DNA from: a virus
IMG/VR virus record: IMGVR_UViG_3300042539_000720
Location: 1 to 27,516 of that record
Reading direction: 5' to 3' (one strand)
Length of the DNA stretch: 27,516 nucleotides
Shown: positions 969 through 27,512 of the stretch, one piece after another
Numbering within the stretch: the stretch's first letter is position 1
Layout: each line of letters starts with the position of its first letter
The notes under the pieces: generated by a model
Seen by the model: only the letters and a program-made list of their open reading frames with translations
The model's database searches: none
Told to the model about the DNA's origin: nothing
Translations under genes and position numbers: made by a program

Positions 969-3790
969 TAGATCGCACCTCGCAGACCGAGCTCGCGGGA
1001 GAACGTCGCGTAGACCTCCTGCGCGACTGTTTTCGGGCTATCGACCCCGGTCACGTTGATGTTGATCGTCGCGTTGATCACCTGCGCGCCACCCATGCCG
1101 AGGGCCTGCGCGACAAAGCCTCCCTGTCCACCGCCACTACCGCCGCCGCCGGGGATCGTGCTCCCGCCGCCGATCGTCGGGATGTAGGGGATGTCCACGC
1201 CGGGGAGCCTGTTCGCGTTCTCGATCCACCCGTTCACGGTGCGGATGATGCCGTTGATCTTCGTGATGATGTAGTCGCCGATCCCCGATAGGGCGCCGTT
1301 AAAGGCGGACTTGAGCGCGGCACCGAGTTGCGTGCCGATCGACCGCATGCTCGTCAGGGCGTCCGATCCCGCGCCGGTGACGGAGTCGAGGGCGTCGCTC
1401 GCCCCCGTCTTCACCCATTCGTAGAGCTTCCCGCCGAGCCCGCCCATCGCCGAAATCAGCGCGCCCGGGATCGCGGCGATCTGCGGCTTGACGTTGTCCC
1501 ACAGCTTCGACGCCTGGGTCCCGAGGTACGATGCGCCCGTCTTCGCCCATCCCCACAGGAACGAGCCGAGCGCGCCCGCTGCCGTAATGAGCCGTCCGGG
1601 GATCTGTCCGATCGTGTCTTTGTGCGCGTCCCAGAGCCCGGAGATTTTGCCGGCGAACCACTTCGCGCCGGTCTTCGCCCACGACCAGAGCAGCGCACCG
1701 ATCGCGCCTATCCCCGCGACGAATCGCCCGGGGAGTTGCGAGATCGTGTCCTTGTGCGCATCCCAAAGCCCGGAGACTTTTTTCGCGAACCACTTCGCGC
1801 CCGTCTCTAACCATCCCCAAAGCAACGCACCGACCGCGCCTATCCCCGCGATAAAGCGTCCCGGGAGTTGCGATATCGTCTGCTTGTGCGCGTCCCAGAG
1901 CCCGGCGAGCTTCCCCGCCATCCACTTCGCGCCTGTTTCTAACCATCCCCAGAGGAACGAACCGACGGCCCCTATCCCGGCGACGAACCGCCCCGGGAGT
2001 TGATTGATCGTGTCCCCGTGTTCGTCCCACAGCCCGGCGAGCTTCCCGGCCATCCACGTCGCGCCGGCTTGAATCCATCCCCAGAGCAGGAGCCCGACGT
2101 CGTCGATCTTGCTGACAAGGAACCCGGCGACCTCGCCGATCTTGCTCTTGTGGTCATCCCACAGCGTCGCGAGCTTCATCGCGAGGAACGTCGCCCCCGC
2201 CTTCGCCCATCCCCACAGGATGCCGCCCAGGTCGTCGATGTAGCCGAGGAGCTTGTACCCGAGCCCCGCGGCTCCGGAGACGAGCGCACCCCAGTCGATC
2301 CGGGAGGCGATCCCCTTGATCGCGTCCCACGCGAGCCGGAACGCCTCGAGGGCCGCGATGCTTGCGGCCTCGACGACGTTCTTGAACGCATCCCACGCCG
2401 CCGACCAGTCGCCCGCAAACAGCGCGCGAACGAGGGCGACGACCGCGTGGATGTACGTCCCGATCGCGTCGAGAAGCGGCTGGAGGCGGTAAAGGTTGTC
2501 CATCGCCCACCGGACCGCCTTCACCACACCGTCGCCGATGAGCTTCACGAACGAGCCTAGCGGCCCCTTGACGCGGTCCCAGAGCGCGACAAGGGCCTGC
2601 CGGAGACGATCGATCCCCGTACTCATCTTCGGCAGGGCTGCGCGATAGAGCCCGCCGAGCGTGTCCTTGAACTCTCCGAACTTCGCCTTGAGCCGGTCGA
2701 GTCCACCGCCCGGAGCCTTGAACACGTTGAACCATTTCGTGATCTTCGTCTTGATGCCGAACAGATCCCGTGTCCAGATAAAATAGATCGCCGCGATCGC
2801 GGCGACAACGAGGAGGATAGGGCCGAGGCTCGACAGCATCCCGGCGCGCAAAACGTTAAAGAACATCTTGATCTTTGGGAGCAGGGCGATGATGTTCCCG
2901 AGCGCACCGGCTGCGAATCCGAAGACAAGGAGCAGCGGCCCGATCGCGGCGGCGATGAGTCCGACGACCACGATGACGGTTTTCATCCGCGTGCTCATGC
3001 CGTCGAACCGCTCGATGAGTCGGGAGATAAAGCCGACGAGGCGGGTAACGTAAGGGAGCAGCACCTGCCCGATCGCGGCGGCGGCATTCGTCAACCGCGC
3101 GCGGAGGATCTTCATCTGGTTCGCGAGACTGCCGGACGTGTTCGCAAAGTCGCCCTGCGCGTTCGCCGCTTTCTCATTGATCAGCGCATTACGGGCTGCG
3201 ACTTTTTCTTGCTCGGTCAGTGCACCAGTTACGCCCTCCGCACGGTGCGCCAGGGCGTAGGCTTCGACCTCTGCTTCGCTGAGGACGATGCCGAACCGCT
3301 TCAGCGGCTCGTACTCGCCGAGGAGGCCTGCCCGGAGTGCGTCTAACGCCTCGCCGGTCGGGACGTTGTTGAACGACCCGAGGTCGGCACCGAGCTGCAC
3401 GATGTCGGTCGAGAGACCGGCGGCGGCCTCGCCGCTCATCCCCATCGACGTGAAGATATTGCCGAACGTCGATGCGAAGCCGAGGGCCTCGTTCTGTGAC
3501 AAGCCGAACGCCGTCGCCGAGTCCTCCGACCATGCGATGACCCCGGCGGAGGCGTCGTCAAAAACGACGTTCGTTTTGTTGATCGTCTCGTTGAGGTCGG
3601 AGGCGGCCATCACCGCGAGGGCGAACCCGCCGACGATCGGCGCGGTGACGCGCGTCGTCAGCGTGGTCCCGATGTCCCGGAGTCGGGTCCCGACGGCGTC
3701 GAGCTTACGCCCGACCTCGTCCATCTTCGTGTTGAACCCCGACGCGTCGAGGTCCATCTTGACGCCCATCGTCGAGATAACGGTCGCCAT
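968..3790 (-). CDS. tail tape measure protein
   Basis: At 940 aa this is the longest gene in the window and it directly follows the tail chaperone ORFs, the canonical place for the tape measure. The N-terminus (MATVISTMGVKMDLDASGFN) and the segment SDLNETINKTNVVFDDAS through GEYEPLKRFGI are typical of TP901-type tape measures. Two hydrophobic segments lie near residues 272-295 and 322-340, a common feature thought to help DNA cross the membrane. Six tandem 44-residue repeats occupy residues 525-788, and a Gly-rich linker lies near 880-900. At roughly 0.15 nm per residue, a tail of about 140 nm would be expected (inference). The start is ATG in a TAATG junction with GGAGGG upstream. Confidence 0.95.
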   Translation of the reverse strand: MATVISTMGVKMDLDASGFNTKMDEVGRKLDAVGTRLRDIGTTLTTRVTAPIVGGFALAVMAASDLNETINKTNVVFDDASAGVIAWSEDSATAFGLSQNEALGFASTFGNIFTSMGMSGEAAAGLSTDIVQLGADLGSFNNVPTGEALDALRAGLLGEYEPLKRFGIVLSEAEVEAYALAHRAEGVTGALTEQEKVAARNALINEKAANAQGDFANTSGSLANQMKILRARLTNAAAAIGQVLLPYVTRLVGFISRLIERFDGMSTRMKTVIVVVGLIAAAIGPLLLVFGFAAGALGNIIALLPKIKMFFNVLRAGMLSSLGPILLVVAAIAAIYFIWTRDLFGIKTKITKWFNVFKAPGGGLDRLKAKFGEFKDTLGGLYRAALPKMSTGIDRLRQALVALWDRVKGPLGSFVKLIGDGVVKAVRWAMDNLYRLQPLLDAIGTYIHAVVALVRALFAGDWSAAWDAFKNVVEAASIAALEAFRLAWDAIKGIASRIDWGALVSGAAGLGYKLLGYIDDLGGILWGWAKAGATFLAMKLATLWDDHKSKIGEVAGFLVSKIDDVGLLLWGWIQAGATWMAGKLAGLWDEHGDTINQLPGRFVAGIGAVGSFLWGWLETGAKWMAGKLAGLWDAHKQTISQLPGRFIAGIGAVGALLWGWLETGAKWFAKKVSGLWDAHKDTISQLPGRFVAGIGAIGALLWSWAKTGAKWFAGKISGLWDAHKDTIGQIPGRLITAAGALGSFLWGWAKTGASYLGTQASKLWDNVKPQIAAIPGALISAMGGLGGKLYEWVKTGASDALDSVTGAGSDALTSMRSIGTQLGAALKSAFNGALSGIGDYIITKINGIIRTVNGWIENANRLPGVDIPYIPTIGGGSTIPGGGGSGGGQGGFVAQALGMGGAQVINATININVTGVDSPKTVAQEVYATFSRELGLRGAI
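1427..2218 (-). repeat. six tandem 132-bp (44-aa) repeats inside the tape measure gene
   Basis: Units start at 2218, 2086, 1954, 1822, 1690 and 1558 on the minus strand, each exactly 132 bp. A degenerate seventh copy begins at 1426 (LYEWVKTGAS). Each unit begins LWGW or LWSW, carries a GAxW..GK..GLWD motif and ends with a PGRF..GIGA.G motif. The middle copies 2-5 are the most alike; the outer copies have diverged. The spacing was checked from the recurring ccatcccca (Trp-Gly-Trp) positions. Confidence 0.95.
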
Positions 3791-4110
3791 TAGCGGTACC
3801 CTCCGAGCGCGGCGCGGATCTTGTGAGCGAGCTGCTCGGGGGTCGGCTTCGGCTTCTCGTAATACGGCATGAAGTCCACCGGCTCGAACGCCTTCGGCTG
3901 CTTCTTCGCGTCGCGGTTCACGTTCGCGATCACCGACGCGACGATGCCGGAGCGCAGATCACCGCGCTCCTCACCCCACGGCTCGAGACCGTAGTACTCG
4001 CCCCACTCGAGGTACTCTCGCCACGTCATCCGGTCGAGCATCTCCTCTACCGGCATCCCGAGGGCGAGAGCGAGGCGGAACTGGAACCGGCGGTCGGGCC
4101 GGTCCCTCAT
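3790..4110 (-). CDS. tail assembly chaperone, T-like part (DUF4035-like)
   Basis: This 106-aa ORF carries FQFRLALALGMPVEEML, LEWGEYYGLEPWGEERGDLR and VIANVNRDAKKQPK. This pattern is known from the DUF4035 / lambda T-type tail assembly protein family. Its first codons overlap the stop of the preceding chaperone ORF by ATGA, and a GGGAAAA slippery heptamer ends exactly at the A of this ATG. It is therefore probably made mainly as the C-terminal part of a 218-aa frameshift fusion, as in lambda gpGT. No convincing ribosome binding site of its own was seen. It acts in the cytoplasm, bringing tail tube protein to the tape measure. Confidence 0.88.
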   Translation of the reverse strand: MRDRPDRRFQFRLALALGMPVEEMLDRMTWREYLEWGEYYGLEPWGEERGDLRSGIVASVIANVNRDAKKQPKAFEPVDFMPYYEKPKPTPEQLAHKIRAALGGYR

Positions 4111-4116
4111 TTTCCC
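4083..4116 (-). promoter_or_regulatory. programmed -1 ribosomal frameshift signal (slippery site plus hairpin)
   Basis: The minus strand reads GC G-GGA-AAA TGA at the end of the first chaperone ORF. Positions 4116-4110 are the heptamer GGGAAAA in correct X-XXY-YYZ phase, next to the UGA stop. A -1 slip makes the next codon ATG at 4110, exactly the frame of the T-like ORF. Downstream, GGGACCGGC (4106-4098) and GCCGGTTCC (4091-4083) form a 9-bp stem with one G-U pair and a 6-nt loop, starting 3 nt after the heptamer. Lambda G/GT uses the near-identical GGGAAAG. The efficiency cannot be judged from sequence. Confidence 0.87.
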
Positions 4117-4445
4117 GCGTCGTCGCTCCCGGTGATGCCGCTCACCTCGGCGACCGCCGTCGCCAGCCGGACGATCGGTCCGACCTCGAGCCCCCGGAGA
4201 TCGTCCGGTCCCGCGAACAGCGCGGCCCCGTCTTCGGTCACCGTCGCCGCTGCCACCAGGCGGAACGCCGCCTCGATGTTCTGCGAGAGGTCACGGTCGC
4301 CGGAAGCGAAGACCTCCGACATCCCCTGCACCTCGCCCGCCGTCAACGGTCGGACCAACACGTCGCCGCCCCACTCCGGGACGGCGACGGCCTTCGTCTT
4401 CGAGCGGCGGGTCGCGAAAATAGCCTCACGCGTGAGTAGCGTCAC
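4107..4445 (-). CDS. tail assembly chaperone, G-like part
   Basis: This 112-aa protein has the pattern VAVPEWGGDVLVRPLTAGEVQGM near residue 20, typical of siphophage tail assembly chaperones preceding the tape measure. The GTG start at 4445 has GAGAGGAG six bases upstream. It sits between the tail tube gene and the T-like ORF, and its 3' end carries the frameshift signal, so it is expected as both a short product and a fusion. The family binds tail tube and tape measure proteins during assembly and is absent from the virion. Confidence 0.9.
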   Translation of the reverse strand: MTLLTREAIFATRRSKTKAVAVPEWGGDVLVRPLTAGEVQGMSEVFASGDRDLSQNIEAAFRLVAAATVTEDGAALFAGPDDLRGLEVGPIVRLATAVAEVSGITGSDDAGK

Positions 4446-4485
4446 GGGTTACTCCTCTCGCTGGTCATCGACCGGCGAACGTGAA

Positions 4486-4929
4486 CTAGGCCCAGGTCAC
4501 CGCGCCGGTCACCTGCAACGTGACCGCAGCGGAAAGCACGCCTTCGACCGGAGCCGAGAGCTCGAACCCGGTGACGTAGGCGGTGAACGCGGCGGTGTCG
4601 TTCGCCGCGCCGACGCCGGTCGGGAGCACGAGCTGGAAGTTCCGCTTCGTCTTGTCGACCATGTCGTCGTAGAGCGATCCGGAGCCGAACCCCTGGGTCG
4701 CGTCGCCCTTGAAGTTGATGTCGAACGTGACCTCGCCCGCCTCGATGATCGTCGGGATGTGCTCGCGCCACCCGGCGGAGTCGTGATTCGTCACGTCCTC
4801 GGTCGCGAGGGCGAACGCGAAGCCGGAGATGTCCCGGACCTCGGCGATCGTCGTGAACGTCTCGGTCGGCGAGCCGCCGTTGCCGATCTTGAGCAGCGTC
4901 CCGAAGGACGAGAGAGCACCACTGGGCAT
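4486..4929 (-). CDS. major tail tube protein, lambda gpV-like
   Basis: This 147-aa protein carries TFTTIAEVRDISGFAFA near residue 24, then DVTNHDSAGWREHIPTI and EAGEVTFDINF. These are signature stretches of the lambda-type phage tail tube N-terminal domain family. It polymerises as stacked hexameric rings around the tape measure. The ATG at 4929 follows GGGAGGAAAACGAC, a strong ribosome binding site, and a stable hairpin lies just upstream of it. Position ahead of the chaperone pair is canonical. The length is slightly short for the family, with no C-terminal Ig-like extension. Confidence 0.93.
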   Translation of the reverse strand: MPSGALSSFGTLLKIGNGGSPTETFTTIAEVRDISGFAFALATEDVTNHDSAGWREHIPTIIEAGEVTFDINFKGDATQGFGSGSLYDDMVDKTKRNFQLVLPTGVGAANDTAAFTAYVTGFELSAPVEGVLSAAVTLQVTGAVTWA

Positions 4930-4943
4930 GTCGTTTTCCTCCC

Positions 4944-4961
4944 GAGCGGGACGCCCCGCTC
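4944..4961 (-). promoter_or_regulatory. hairpin upstream of the tail tube gene RBS
   Basis: GAGCGGG and CCCGCTC form a perfect 7-bp stem with a 4-nt loop, in the 42-base gap between the 115-aa gene and the tail tube gene. It ends directly beside the GGGAGG ribosome binding site. There is no U-tract, so an mRNA-processing or 5'-end-stabilising role for the highly expressed tube gene is more likely than full termination (inference). Confidence 0.6.
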
Positions 4962-4971
4962 CTCTAGTCTA

Positions 4972-5319
4972 CTACGGGAGTGCAATCACCCCGAACTTCA
5001 CCGCGGTGTTCGACGCTTGCAGATAAAGCCGTCCGTCGGTCTGCTGCCACCCGGCGAGCCCGAAGGGGCCGAGGGTGTGGATCGCCCCGGCGGCGATCGA
5101 CTGGGTCGTGATGTCACCGGTCCGCCCGTAGGGGTCGGCGACCGACGTGATCGTGTAGGTGTAGGAGCTCGCACCGGTGTTCTGAACGATGAGGACCTCG
5201 CGACCGGTCAGCGCGAACTGCTCGAAGTTGGTCGTGTCCGCCGCCGTCATCGTAACGGCGACCCCGGCGGACGGGTTCGGTCCCGGGCTGTTCGTGCGGG
5301 TCAGGGTGACGCGCGGCAT
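4972..5319 (-). CDS. small beta-rich virion-module protein, function unknown
   Basis: This 115-aa protein begins MPRVTLTRTNSPGPNPSAG and is rich in Thr, Ala and Gly, with alternating hydrophobic residues (VLIVQNTGASSYTYTITSVAD) typical of a beta-sandwich. There is no signal peptide or membrane segment. The ATG start at 5319 follows the previous stop by three bases, with GGGGAG just upstream. It sits between the zinc-finger gene and the tail tube gene, so a head-decoration, head-tail joining or tail role is plausible. I do not recognise the family. Confidence 0.8.
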   Translation of the reverse strand: MPRVTLTRTNSPGPNPSAGVAVTMTAADTTNFEQFALTGREVLIVQNTGASSYTYTITSVADPYGRTGDITTQSIAAGAIHTLGPFGLAGWQQTDGRLYLQASNTAVKFGVIALP

Positions 5320-5322
5320 GTC

Positions 5323-5571
5323 TTACTCCCCTGTCTCGAGCGCGGCGATGCGCTCACCGAAGGACGGCTCCTCGACGACGGGATCGGGCTCCGGCTTGCG
5401 CTTCGCCTTCACCGGCGCGGGGTCGGCGACGACCGGCGCGGGCTTCGTCTCGAGACGGTGCCGCCACAAGACGTGGTCGCGCGCGGTCTCCTGATCGCCG
5501 GTGTCGAACGCGCAGAGCGGACAGCCGTAGCGGAGCACGCCCCGCCACTCGTGGGTCGTGGGCTCGATCAT
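5323..5571 (-). CDS. small C2H2 zinc-finger protein in the tail module
   Basis: This 82-aa protein starts at the ATG at 5571, which overlaps the upstream stop by ATGA. Residues 17-38 carry Cys17-x2-Cys20-x12-His33-x4-His38, an exact match to the classical C2H2 finger spacing. The C-terminal half is a charged Pro/Lys/Glu tail (VKAKRKPEPDPVVEEPS). The in-frame extension upstream to 5943 is only the shadow of the neighbouring gene. Whether it binds DNA or simply uses zinc for folding is unknown. Confidence 0.82.
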   Translation of the reverse strand: MIEPTTHEWRGVLRYGCPLCAFDTGDQETARDHVLWRHRLETKPAPVVADPAPVKAKRKPEPDPVVEEPSFGERIAALETGE

Positions 5572-14454: not shown

Positions 14455-14877
14455 CTACTCGCCACCCTCGGTCGCGGCGATGATCAACGGGATCGGGCGA
14501 TCGTCGATGCTGCCGAGCTTCTGCTCGACCCGGCGGGGAGCGTTGAGGCCATCGAGCTCGGCGAGGTCGGCGAGGGCCTTCTGACAGATCGCCGCCGCCT
14601 TCTCGTCACCGGACACCGCCTTGTCATAGTAGGCGGCGTAGATCGACTCGAGCCGATCGCGGTGCAGGTTGCGGTATTCCTCGGCGGGCTCGCGGAGCGT
14701 CTCCCGGAGCGCGGCGAGGACGGCCTTATGGGCTCCGGATGCGTTCGCGTATCCGAGGGCTTCGGCGATCTCCTCGAACGTCCGCCCGGCCTTTCGCATG
14801 CGCAAGGCGTCCGCCTGCCTCTCGTTGGCGGTCATCCCCCTTGTACTTGCTTTAGGTATACCTCGGGGTCTTGCCAC
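14455..14877 (-). CDS. terS: terminase small subunit
   Basis: This 140-aa protein has an N-terminal helix-turn-helix region (MTANERQADALRMRKAGRTF then EEIAEALGYANASGAHKAV), expected for DNA recognition by small terminases. Helices follow (YRNLHRDRLESIYAAYYDKA) with a short C-terminal tail. It directly precedes the large subunit. GTG at 14877 is chosen because GGAG lies five bases upstream; the internal ATG at 14835 has its purine tract directly abutting it. It is the first gene of the late operon and borders the large non-coding region, a natural place for its cos or pac target. Confidence 0.9.
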   Translation of the reverse strand: MARPRGIPKASTRGMTANERQADALRMRKAGRTFEEIAEALGYANASGAHKAVLAALRETLREPAEEYRNLHRDRLESIYAAYYDKAVSGDEKAAAICQKALADLAELDGLNAPRRVEQKLGSIDDRPIPLIIAATEGGE

Positions 14878-15455
14878 GGTTTCTCCATCGGCAACACTAA
14901 GCCGGGGTATAGTCCCCCTTTCTCTAGTCTACATCATGCCGTCTAGTCGCTTCGCGGGGGTCCGGATCGCGGCGACGCGTGACGAGATGCGCGGTGTAGT
15001 CGTTCGTCGTGTCTTGTCTGGGCCAGTCTTGTCGTGCGCGCCGTACCGGTCTGTCGAGTTCCGTGCAGTCGATCGGGGGTCGCGAGGGCATGGTGCGACA
15101 GGGTTGGCATAGTCGGTCGGGAGTGACATGTCTGGGCTCGGCTTGTGACGTCGGGTCGGGAAGGCGGGGCTTGTGGTGTGACGTCGTGCGGGCTGTTCTG
15201 AACGGCTACGGGCGGTCTGGGCTTGTCGTGTCGATAGCGGCGAGGTGGAAGGGCTTGACTAGGCCAGTCGATGAGGGACGTCGTGCCTGGGTCGGTCGCG
15301 CTCGGTTTGGGATCGTCGCAGCGCGTGGAGTTGTGGCGGGTAGAATAGTCGCGAAGGATGGGCGGGTCGCGGCTAGGGTAGTCGGGCGAGCTGCATGGTA
15401 GCGGGTGGTAACGTCGTTCGTCGTGGGGCGTACCGGTGCGTTATGTTCTGTCGGC

Positions 15456-15566
15456 GATCGACCGGTCGGGGCCGGGGGCCAGCGCAGGCGGCTCTTCACC
15501 GCCTTCGCCCGAGGAGCGCACCGGAGGCTCGCGTTGACGCCGTCCCCCGGCCCGGACCGGTCGATC
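15456..15566. repeat. long inverted repeat, 23-bp arms with one mismatch
   Basis: The arms are 15456-15478 and 15544-15566. They begin GATCGACCGGTC and end GACCGGTCGATC, matching at 22 of 23 positions. The 65-base interior contains a further 6-bp hairpin (AGGCGG 15486-15491 with CCGCCT 15499-15504, 7-nt loop). This is the longest inverted repeat found in the window. It could form a cruciform or a structured RNA in either direction. Confidence 0.85.
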
Positions 15567-15885
15567 TGTGGGTTGTCGTGCGCGATGTCAAGTCTAGGCG
15601 AGACCTGGCCCGTGTGGTCGCGAGAGACGAGCAGGTACGGGACGCGATGGCCAGTCGGCGCGACGTGTTTCGCGGGGGACGGGTAGGCTCGTTTTGTCGC
15701 GCGTAGTGAGCCGACGGGTGACGAGTAGCGTCGACTTGTCTTGTCGATAGCGGCGGGAGGTAGCGACGCGCAGCGAAGGGGATGGGTTAGTCGCTCGGGA
15801 AGAATAGTGACGCGATGAGGCGACAGGGATAGTCGGTCGAAAATGTTTCGTCGCGGCTTGGCTTGACTTGTCGTGTGGTATGCTT

Positions 15886-15954
15886 GCGTCATGCCTGGTG
15901 TGAACCGGTCATGTTCTACCCCGTAGGCGATTGTGCCTCCGGGGTTTCTTTTTT
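15886..15954 (+). ncRNA. candidate small plus-strand RNA: two hairpins and an intrinsic terminator
   Basis: The first hairpin pairs CATGCCTGGT (15890-15899) with ACCGGTCATG (15904-15913) around a GTGA tetraloop, with one mismatch and one G-U pair. The second is the terminator at 15918-15954. A possible extended -10 element, TGGTATGCT, lies at about 15875-15883 with no good -35 at normal spacing. The transcript would be about 70 nt. The 5' end is inferred; the hairpins and U-tract are seen directly. A very short ORF (MPGVNRSCSTP) spans it but lacks a ribosome binding site. Confidence 0.5.
15918..15954 (+). terminator. rho-independent terminator on the plus strand
   Basis: ACCCCGTAGGC (15918-15928) pairs with GCCTCCGGGGT (15935-15945) with one mismatch and a 6-nt loop, followed by TTCTTTTTT. 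It is the most classical intrinsic terminator in the window and points in the plus direction, opposite to all protein genes. On the minus strand the stem is not followed by a U-tract. Confidence 0.85.
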
Positions 15955-16101
15955 CCCCGTCGGTGGGATATGCGCAGTCGCGGCTGGTGGCGGCTAGTCG
16001 GCGGGCGGTGACCTGGGTTGACTTGTCTAGCGCGTCGTCGTGGCGTGAACCGGATAGTCGGGACGTTGCGATGTGAACAGCGGCGATACGTTGAGTCGAT
16101 G

Positions 16102-16127
16102 GGGGGAGGCGGGCGACCGCCTCCCCC
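16102..16127 (-). terminator. GC-rich hairpin ending the early gene block
   Basis: GGGGGAGGCGG and CCGCCTCCCCC form a perfect 11-bp stem around a 4-base loop, starting 7 bases after the TAA stop of the 247-aa gene. No U-tract follows on the minus strand. It marks the end of the early/middle transcription unit and is a plausible U-less terminator. Confidence 0.7.
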
Positions 16128-16133
16128 GCGATG

Positions 16134-16877
16134 TTAGAGCCTGTCGAACCCGACGACCTTGAACTGTCCGTGTGACTGCGAGCGGAGCGCGCCGAAGCCG
16201 GAGTCCTGCAAGTAAAGGAGGATCATCTTCCACTGGTCGGCGGTGATCCGCTCCTTGTGCTCGCTCGGGTCGATGATCGATCGGATCACGAACCGGATGC
16301 GCGCCTTTTCGACGTAGTCGTACTGTGTCAAGGTACTCCTCGCTCCCTGCGGCCCGGGGACGACGCCGTGCTGCGTCCACGTCCCGTCGGGCTCCGTCCG
16401 CCCCAAATGGATGCGCTGCCCTTCGACGAACACCCACTCCGCGAGCGCGTTCTTCGGACCCTTGCGCGTCTTCCCCCACCGGTCGCCGCTGAAAAGGACG
16501 GCGACGGCTTCCTTGAGCCCGGCCTTGAGCTGCCGGGACTCGAGGTAGAGCCCCTGTTCGTCGCGCTTGAACGTGTTGCCGTGCCGCTCCGCGCCGACCT
16601 TTTCGGAGGCGGCCATGATCTCCTCGAGCGTCGCGTTCTCCGGGGTCTCGACACCGAGGTCGAGCAGGGTCTGCCGGACGATGCTCGCGAGCTCGGCGTC
16701 CGAATCGGGGCCGAGACCCATCTTCGACCGAATCCACCCGGCGATCAGGTCCGGCTTCTGCGGGACACCGCCCATCACCTTGTCGAGGAACTGGCACTCG
16801 ACCTGGTACCGGATGTAGAGCCCGTCGGTCATCTCGTCGAACACGCCCACGATGGGCTCGGTGAACGTTGCGGTCAT
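16134..16877 (-). CDS. unknown early protein with RAMP-like C-terminal motif
   Basis: This 247-aa protein is the last gene of the early block. The N-terminus has GLYIRYQVECQFLDKVMGGV followed by PDLIAGWIRSKMG. The middle has GLYLESRQLKAGLKEAVAVLF. The C-terminus has VPGPQGARSTLTQYDYVEKA, then ARIRFVIRSI, then LLYLQDSGFGALRSQSHGQF. The last stretch resembles the glycine-rich loop near the C-terminus of RAMP (Cas6/Cas7-like) RNA-binding proteins, and the pattern of a strand, a K-rich helix and a late helix-G-loop also fits. This is resemblance by eye only. Start ATG has AGAGGAG upstream. Confidence 0.8.
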   Translation of the reverse strand: MTATFTEPIVGVFDEMTDGLYIRYQVECQFLDKVMGGVPQKPDLIAGWIRSKMGLGPDSDAELASIVRQTLLDLGVETPENATLEEIMAASEKVGAERHGNTFKRDEQGLYLESRQLKAGLKEAVAVLFSGDRWGKTRKGPKNALAEWVFVEGQRIHLGRTEPDGTWTQHGVVPGPQGARSTLTQYDYVEKARIRFVIRSIIDPSEHKERITADQWKMILLYLQDSGFGALRSQSHGQFKVVGFDRL

Positions 16878-16900: not shown

Positions 16901-17500
16901 CTATCCCGCCCGGCGAATATCCGATATGCGCGCGTGTAGGATGCGGTTCGCGATCCGCTCGGCTTCCTCCTCGCTGACGACGTCCGAAGCGACCTGCCCC
17001 GGCTGGAGACGGCTGGCGATCTCTCGACAGAGTGTCGCCCGGCGATGCGCGACCACGGACTCGGTGTCGCGGATCTGCGCGGCGACGAGGAGCTCCTCGC
17101 GGGTCATCGAGAGGAGCGGAACCTCGACCGCGGTGTCCGGGTGACGCTCGAAGAACCTCGCGACCGCGTCGTCTTCGACACCCGAGCGGACCCGGGCGAC
17201 GATCTCGGCGCGCTTGCGTGCGTTGAGCCTACCATGACGGAATGGGGGATTGTCAACCGACGCGACCTCGACCGGCTTCGGTTCGTGATCCTCGACGGCG
17301 AGCGCGGTGTCCCCGGCGACGGCGCGGTGAGCGAACATCCGCAGCGACTCCATTACCAGAGACTCCAGGATCGCCGGAGACGCGCCGTACCGCTGCACTG
17401 CGAGGGAGACAATCTGTTCGACCGTCGCGCCTTCTTCGTGCCTCTTTTTGGCCCACTGCAAGTAGCCGTAGACGACGGGGAACTCGTCGGCGTTCTTCAC
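16901..17500 (-). CDS. unknown early protein, 199 aa
   Basis: The product begins with GTG at 17500, preceded by GAGGAGG seven bases upstream. It is largely helical, with an N-terminal segment EEGATVEQIVSLAVQRYGAS that looks like a small helical fold. A basic middle (GRLNARKRAEIVARVRSGVEDDAV) and LLSMTREELLVAAQIRDTES follow. No catalytic or metal motifs are evident. It lies between the RusA-like gene and the RAMP-like gene in the same transcription unit. Function not recognised. Confidence 0.8.
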   Translation of the reverse strand: MKNADEFPVVYGYLQWAKKRHEEGATVEQIVSLAVQRYGASPAILESLVMESLRMFAHRAVAGDTALAVEDHEPKPVEVASVDNPPFRHGRLNARKRAEIVARVRSGVEDDAVARFFERHPDTAVEVPLLSMTREELLVAAQIRDTESVVAHRRATLCREIASRLQPGQVASDVVSEEEAERIANRILHARISDIRRAG

Positions 17501-27236: not shown

Positions 27237-27278
27237 AACAAAGCCTCCCGGAGCCGATCGGCTCCGGGGGGCTTTGTT
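27237..27278 (-). terminator. strong terminator after the holin-like gene
   Basis: AACAAAGCC-T-CCCGGAGCC (27237-27255) pairs with GGCTCCGGG-G-GGCTTTGTT (27260-27278) over 19 positions with one imperfect pair and a GATC loop. On the minus strand it ends in the U-rich stretch CUUUGUUGUG. The stem could also act on plus-strand transcripts. Confidence 0.85.
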
Positions 27279-27284
27279 TGTCCG

Positions 27285-27512
27285 CTACTTCAGCCCTCGT
27301 CGCCCGGTCGTCTCCTCGAGCGCATTCTGCGCGAACGAGACGACGGCGACGATGCCTGCCCAGGCCGCCGCGATCGTCGCGCGCTTGAGGACCTCGATGT
27401 CGGGGACCGAGTCAATGCCCATCGCCCCGCTCGTCGAGAGCGCGATGAAGACGCCGAGGAACGCCTGCAGGAACGTCCGAATACCACGAACCAACGGATC
27501 ACGCATCGCCAC
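27285..27512 (-). CDS. holin-like small membrane protein
   Basis: This product of 75 aa (GTG 27512) or 73 aa (ATG 27506) contains two hydrophobic helices, FLQAFLGVFIALS near residues 14-26 and ATIAAAWAGIVAVVSFAQNAL near 45-65, with a charged N-terminus (MRDPLVRGIR) and C-terminus (EETTGRRGLK). The pattern RTFLQAFLGV...LKRA.IAA..AG...V..F.QNALEE is typical of r1t-type phage holins. It would form membrane lesions for lysis. A lysis partner is not in the window. The ribosome binding site lies beyond the edge. Confidence 0.8.
   Translation of the reverse strand: MAMRDPLVRGIRTFLQAFLGVFIALSTSGAMGIDSVPDIEVLKRATIAAAWAGIVAVVSFAQNALEETTGRRGLK

Follow-up and report, generated by a model that had tools for sequence, protein, structure and literature searches.

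A gene-free gap of about 1.2 kb (14920-16134) in the phage genome studied here was found to carry, over nearly its whole length, an array with an exact register of five nucleotides, in which each fifth base on the genes' strand is C and the motif CGAC re-phases the register. The genome, an IMG/VR virus record 27,516 bases long, was analyzed as a whole and is called the window below. Such arrays were revealed in five distinct phages (identical contigs were counted once), and in 5/5 of them a gene for a RAMP-like protein directly precedes the array. The explanation that we prefer, with a probability of roughly 0.4, is that the array, probably in the form of RNA, serves the phage RAMP protein as a nucleic-acid ligand and would be bound with one subunit per 5 nt, and that an intrinsic terminator lies within it. 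The explanations weighed in this work are not mutually exclusive, since some of them concern the terminator and others the array.

The gap and its five-base register

Every recognisable gene of the window is located on the minus strand. The late block, from 14877 downwards, includes the genes of the terminase large subunit, the portal, the tape measure and others, while the early/replication block starts at 16134 and extends upward; the gap separates the two blocks and contains the segment 15886-15954, which was initially described as a candidate small RNA. The sole ORF overlapping this segment (15206-15892, minus strand) was rejected as non-coding by its codon score (-0.21, compared with +0.11 to +0.58 for real genes), and the first-pass annotation was thus right that no gene overlaps the segment. 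An attP site was also considered for the gap and dismissed: no tyrosine integrase was found in the window, and that of the relative G002 is located far from the gap. The coordinates of the main features are collected in Table 1.

Table 1. Main features in and around the gap between the late and early genes of the window
Feature	Coordinates	Strand	Remarks
Small ORF, presumed terminase small subunit	14455-14877	-	first late-block gene; bounds the gap and adjoins the terminase large subunit gene
Period-5 non-coding array (C-N4)n with CGAC phase resets	about 14947-16100	-	hidden Markov model and autocorrelation
Large hairpin with 29-nt arms	15456-15566	.	breaks the register
Extended -10-like box TGGTATGCT	15876-15884	+	the only TGnTATnnT on the plus strand of the gap
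GTGA-capped hairpin	15890-15913	+	weak; inside the array register
Intrinsic-terminator hairpin with TTTCTTTTTT tail	15918-15954	+	z -4.47; out of the array register
Perfect 11-bp hairpin without U-tract	16102-16127	-	just past the stop codon of the RAMP-like gene; z -4.76
Early gene, predicted 247-aa Cas7/Csm3-like RAMP-fold protein	16134-16877	-	predicted fold, glycine loop
Gene of a 199-aa predicted all-helical protein	16901-17500	-	conserved neighbour of the RAMP-like gene; low-confidence model

It should be mentioned that the product of the small ORF bounding the gap matches phrog_645 (2.4e-29), and the label of this family, 'RNase E', is probably a misannotation of the terminase small subunit. 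Just upstream of this ORF lies GCCGGGGTATAGTCCCCCT (14901-14919), a possible operator or late promoter; it is identical in the relative L006, and the alignable sequence ends with it at the gap border.

The register was scored, in nats, as the log-odds of a hidden Markov model with a 5-nt phase. The period-5 values were +59.7 in the window, +48.7 in L006, +63.5 in L093, +31.1 in L138 and +16.9 in the Microcystis phage Mae-JY09. Periods of 3, 4, 6, 7 and 8 nt gave negative log-odds in all five arrays, and the remainder of the window reached +1.7 at most with period 5. Autocorrelation statistics for the five arrays were 13.5-23.1 vs. maxima of 5.3-7.4 in dinucleotide shuffles (17.5-23.1 for the gaps of the window, L006 and L093; 23.1 vs. 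7.4 for the window itself). When all fetched loci were scanned for any base and five periods, signals above the threshold came only from these arrays. In the relatives, the arrays were located at 3157-4530 (L006), 2127-3330 (L093), 4770-5330 (L138) and 4738-5130 (L139).

Steps between successive register C residues equal 5 nt in 501 of 566 cases, and 21 of the 22 three-nucleotide steps are CGAC, which identifies CGAC as the re-phasing element. Its copies are often 28, 33, 38 or 43 nt apart (3 + 5k), although the unit spacings are irregular. Alignment of CGAC[A/T] contexts from the five gaps (101 sites) revealed C at +8, +13, +18 and +23 in 86-93%; C at +3 follows from the motif definition, and most positions in between are near background. 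The motif is strictly oriented: CGACTA, as read along the genes (TAGTCG in plus-strand orientation), occurs 9, 8 and 8 times in the gaps of the window, L006 and L093 vs. 0.2-0.8 expected. Counts over the five arrays are 9/8/8/7/4 and those of the reverse complement are 0 in each, with 0/300 shuffles as high. In the window the register is lost in two places, at 15456-15566 and at the terminator (15914-15958). We found no description of such a five-base register in the open-access literature, and apparently it has not been described so far.

Relatives were gathered from IMG/VR by terminase and portal searches and formed two close groups. In the first one (L003, L004 and L006) the DNA is 96% identical to the window right up to the gap, and their own gaps are identical where they overlap; in the second (L093, L094, L096 and L100) identity is 85% in the portal gene, and the gaps are identical among themselves. 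The gaps of both groups are similar in size to that of the window but cannot be aligned with it. For L006 the comparison is especially clear: 70% of the third codon positions of the RAMP-like gene are common with the window, whereas the arrays have no alignable sequence. The free positions of the array turn over fast, which fits either a guide-like variety or rearrangement. An exact register kept over more than 1 kb, while the sequence in between diverges beyond alignment, behaves as a physical ruler and points to a repeating protein contact; a fixed base at each fifth position, combined with free bases and resets, suggests that this contact is made on a single-stranded nucleic acid.

The large hairpin is a candidate structured element. 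Its counterpart in L006 (at about 3380-3501) has different arms, which are nevertheless complementary in both phages, and short pieces of the core are shared (GCGTCAACGC, GGCGAAGGCG), and no counterpart was seen in L093. The idea that this core is a widespread element was abandoned, as it was found only in L006-type contigs. At the position matching the perfect 11-bp hairpin, hairpins were read by eye in both L006 and L093.

The adjacent RAMP-like gene

Two of the five phages, L138 (a 40.7-kb contig; 41% identity in the best segment) and Mae-JY09 (45%), were found by the sequence of the RAMP-like protein alone, and both turned out to carry a period-5 array directly after the RAMP-like gene. 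After the array, L138 has an integrase-like ORF in place of the terminase; thus, the array goes with the RAMP-like gene and not with the terminase.

The protein was modelled with AlphaFold2 on four sequences (mean pLDDT 64.8). Subunits of type III-A Csm complexes were the best PDB matches of the model in Foldseek. In a second structural comparison, 50/50 rows were RAMP or Cas7-type CRISPR subunits with Z up to 8.3, where according to the tool's own note values near 8 may be background; the best viral structural match was a 'Cas system-associated RAMP superfamily protein' (E 1.6e-5). The C-terminal glycine loop GxGAxRSxSxGQF is kept in 4/4 RAMP-like sequences, and a weak match to the PADLOC Csm4 profile (E 0.012) at residues 208-245 covers this loop. 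Pfam RAMPs (PF03787) and NCBIfam models gave no match to the protein; such models miss distant members. Provisionally, the product of the gene can be assigned a predicted RAMP fold. Searches of the four phage records, which are possibly incomplete, did not find cas1 (the search control was positive). Further Cas-type subunits were not recognised either. A Cas11-like label for the neighbouring all-helical protein was dropped since its model had no fold match.

Because the window, L006 and L093 all have the array between the early and late operons beside the terminase, it could instead be a DNA element (an origin, a primase-start region, or a packaging, partition or repressor binding array) with the RAMP-like gene as an incidental neighbour. 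The strong strand skew and the oriented motifs, typical of replication-related DNA, speak for this explanation as well. However, the L138 array precedes an integrase-like gene rather than the terminase and still follows the RAMP-like gene, and a 5-nt register suits a single-strand binder with one subunit per 5 nt better than a double helix with its 10.5-bp turn; we therefore consider a DNA element unlikely. A long Rho-loading (rut-like) region, causing Rho-dependent termination after the early operon and before the late genes, would explain both the location at the operon end and the C-rich, G-poor composition of the minus strand (C 41%, G 24%, T 13%). Yet such a region needs neither an exact 5-nt phase nor CGAC resets, and the linkage to one protein family would be left unexplained, which makes this explanation very improbable.

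Searches related to the host gave a best TerL match of 34%, no homologue of the RAMP-like protein in 400 genomes from the phylum to which a Chloroflexi MAG belongs, and no hit in plasmids.

Proposed mechanism and known systems

According to the ligand hypothesis, the array RNA would be made from the minus strand together with the early operon, as its 3' portion. The RAMP-like protein would assemble on the single-stranded array, each subunit covering 5 nt (C-N4) and contacting the C, while CGA may mark the start of each unit of 30-45 nt. In each of the five distinct phages the array follows a Cas7-like gene, which makes this idea directly testable; a connection between CRISPR backbone proteins and a phage function outside CRISPR might emerge.

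Each subunit of the known Cas7 filaments occupies 6 nt, of which the sixth base is flipped, and binds RNA irrespective of the bases (PMC7937560, PMC5965380). Type IV-B systems do without a CRISPR array and Cas1 and assemble on non-crRNA RNA (PMC7937560). The likeness of the phage protein to Csm3 (III-A) and Csf2 (IV-B) lies in its predicted fold, and the helical RAMP filament on RNA is the mechanism proposed here; in contrast to these systems, the phage array has a period of 5 with a fixed C, and no Cas1 was found. A C-specific footprint of 5 nt would be a departure from known Cas7 subunits.

A precedent for a 5-nt repeat is provided by TRAP, an 11-subunit ring for which the crystallised RNA was (GAGUU)10GAG (PMC4854314). 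Both cases involve a 5-nt period and an oligomer with one short motif per subunit. However, TRAP reads 11 (G/U)AG triplets in a leader, whereas the phage array reaches 1.2 kb, has one C per 5 nt and is re-phased by CGAC; no relationship between TRAP and the RAMP-like protein is indicated.

The array also resembles CRISPR arrays in having a short oriented motif, often each ~33-43 nt, with variable sequence in between and an adjoining Cas-like gene. It differs from them in the absence of a CRISPR-length repeat and of Cas1, in its irregular spacing and in that its 'spacers' keep the 5-nt register. CRISPR-type repeats (near-identical, at least 21 nt, with regular spacers) were not found in the gap, where only CGAC and the C register recur, and guide-like matches of array units to the phage's own genome or those of the relatives showed no excess over the control. 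More speculatively, and as a rather doubtful extension, these data may reflect a new phage ribonucleoprotein system, in which a Cas7-like protein whose 5-nt footprint is base-specific would assemble on a dedicated non-coding RNA of (CNNNN)n units separated by CGA, with N4 blocks that possibly pair with targets; one lineage would then have gained a plus-strand terminator or sRNA.

The plus-strand terminator inside the array

The hairpin at 15918-15954 represents a discrete intrinsic terminator, which is located on the plus strand in gene-free DNA. Each arm of its stem comprises 10 positions, and a single U.C mismatch is the reason why a pattern scan missed it; the stem is closed by a 6-nt loop, GATTGT, and the tail occupies 15945-15954. 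Folding energies were compared with those of shuffled sequence, as the first-pass annotation had suggested: for the terminator alone (15914-15958) z was -4.47, with 0/200 shuffles as good, and the whole segment 15886-15954 folds on the plus strand into two stem-loops of -28.6 kcal/mol (z -3.86, dinucleotide shuffles). The hairpin would form in a minus-strand transcript too, and its direction along the plus strand is given by the T-tract. The annotation had called it the most classical terminator of the window, pointing opposite to all genes. Its direction agrees with this, and in an energy-based scan its U-tract had the top score of the window's strong hairpins; a stronger stem, however, belongs to another terminator that also points along the plus strand, at 27242-27273.

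The segment 15914-15958 fits neither flanking phase of the array. Its upstream neighbours behave differently: with the phase extrapolated from the CGAC at 15873, 7 of the 9 register positions in 15873-15913 are C on the minus strand, and TGGYGTGAACCGG occurs again in the array at 16041. Thus, the GTGA hairpin and the -10 box look like array sequence, and the proposed two-hairpin sRNA appears as array sequence plus an inserted terminator. The GTGA hairpin, which had been noticed correctly, is weak when taken alone (15886-15915, z -1.83, 11/200 shuffles as good).

A covariance model of the module found no homologue in the gaps or whole contigs of L006-type and L093-type relatives. Rfam contained no family at the gathering threshold and nothing credible at relaxed thresholds, and blastn of the gap or the module against INPHARED and plasmids gave no homologue. 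Among IMG/VR DNA-pattern searches, the strict terminator and GTGA-hairpin patterns had 0 matches each, and the relaxed terminator pattern had seven, none with the rest of the module. A match in a Brevundimonas phage was discarded as an ordinary gene-end terminator. The two-stem-loop module is thus, as far as the compared sequences go, particular to the window phage. The arrays of L006 and L093 also yielded no plus-strand terminator, and the one described here, seen in the array of the window alone, is not part of the core element.

These results bear on the original suggestion of a free-standing sRNA, taken here as one of ~64 nt (from ~15891 to 15954) that would be transcribed from the -10 box and would act in trans or bind a protein. 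The extended -10 box is indeed present, and the box, the two stem-loops and the U-tract stand in the correct order and spacing. Post hoc, an equally good terminator with a TGnTATnnT box 35-110 nt upstream was reproduced in 2/3000 shuffled gaps, compared with 59/3000 for the terminator alone. Nevertheless, a conserved module was not supported: no relative contains it, its weak first hairpin is in the array register as is the box, and no clear -35 accompanies the latter. Trans targets also failed to emerge, since the pairing predicted for start regions of the phage itself was no better than in shuffles (26/200 as good). Such an sRNA is possible but not favoured. In size it is similar to two phage small RNAs, lambda OOP RNA (77 nt) and P22 sar RNA (68/69 nt; PMC12197685); unlike the proposed sRNA, which overlaps no gene and is not conserved, both of them are antisense to a phage gene.

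The terminator could also be a chance or passenger insertion without function. This agrees with its absence from the relatives and with whole-window shuffles, 13/60 of which hold a terminator as good, so that it is not rare at that scale; within the gap such terminators are rare (59/3000, as above), and this one breaks an otherwise kept register, so we regard its lack of function as doubtful. Alternatively, the functional array RNA might be the plus strand, with G at each fifth base, UAGUCG resets and a 3' end at 15954. The terminator does point in the plus-strand direction, and it is located in the right-hand part of the array, with most of the oriented motifs upstream. However, part of the array (15959-16100) is located beyond the terminator, no counterpart was found in the arrays of L006 and L093, and the gene strand, next to the stop codon of the RAMP-like gene, gives the natural reading of the resets; a plus-strand array RNA is thus quite improbable.

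If the array RNA is the minus-strand ligand of the RAMP-like protein, the terminator may keep antisense (plus-strand) transcription from running through the array, or else it may end a short plus-strand RNA started from the box at 15876. More generally, an apparent orphan sRNA can turn out to be a single insertion within a larger, unseen structure.

Two minor observations should be added. The start predicted from the TGGTATGCT box, near 15891, coincides with an ATG that opens an 11-codon ORF of the leaderless type (MPGVNRSCSTP, 15891-15926, plus strand), which ends in the terminator stem. The terminator at 27242-27273 is strong and bidirectional and is located just after a small membrane-protein-like gene (27285-27512, holin-like by eye).
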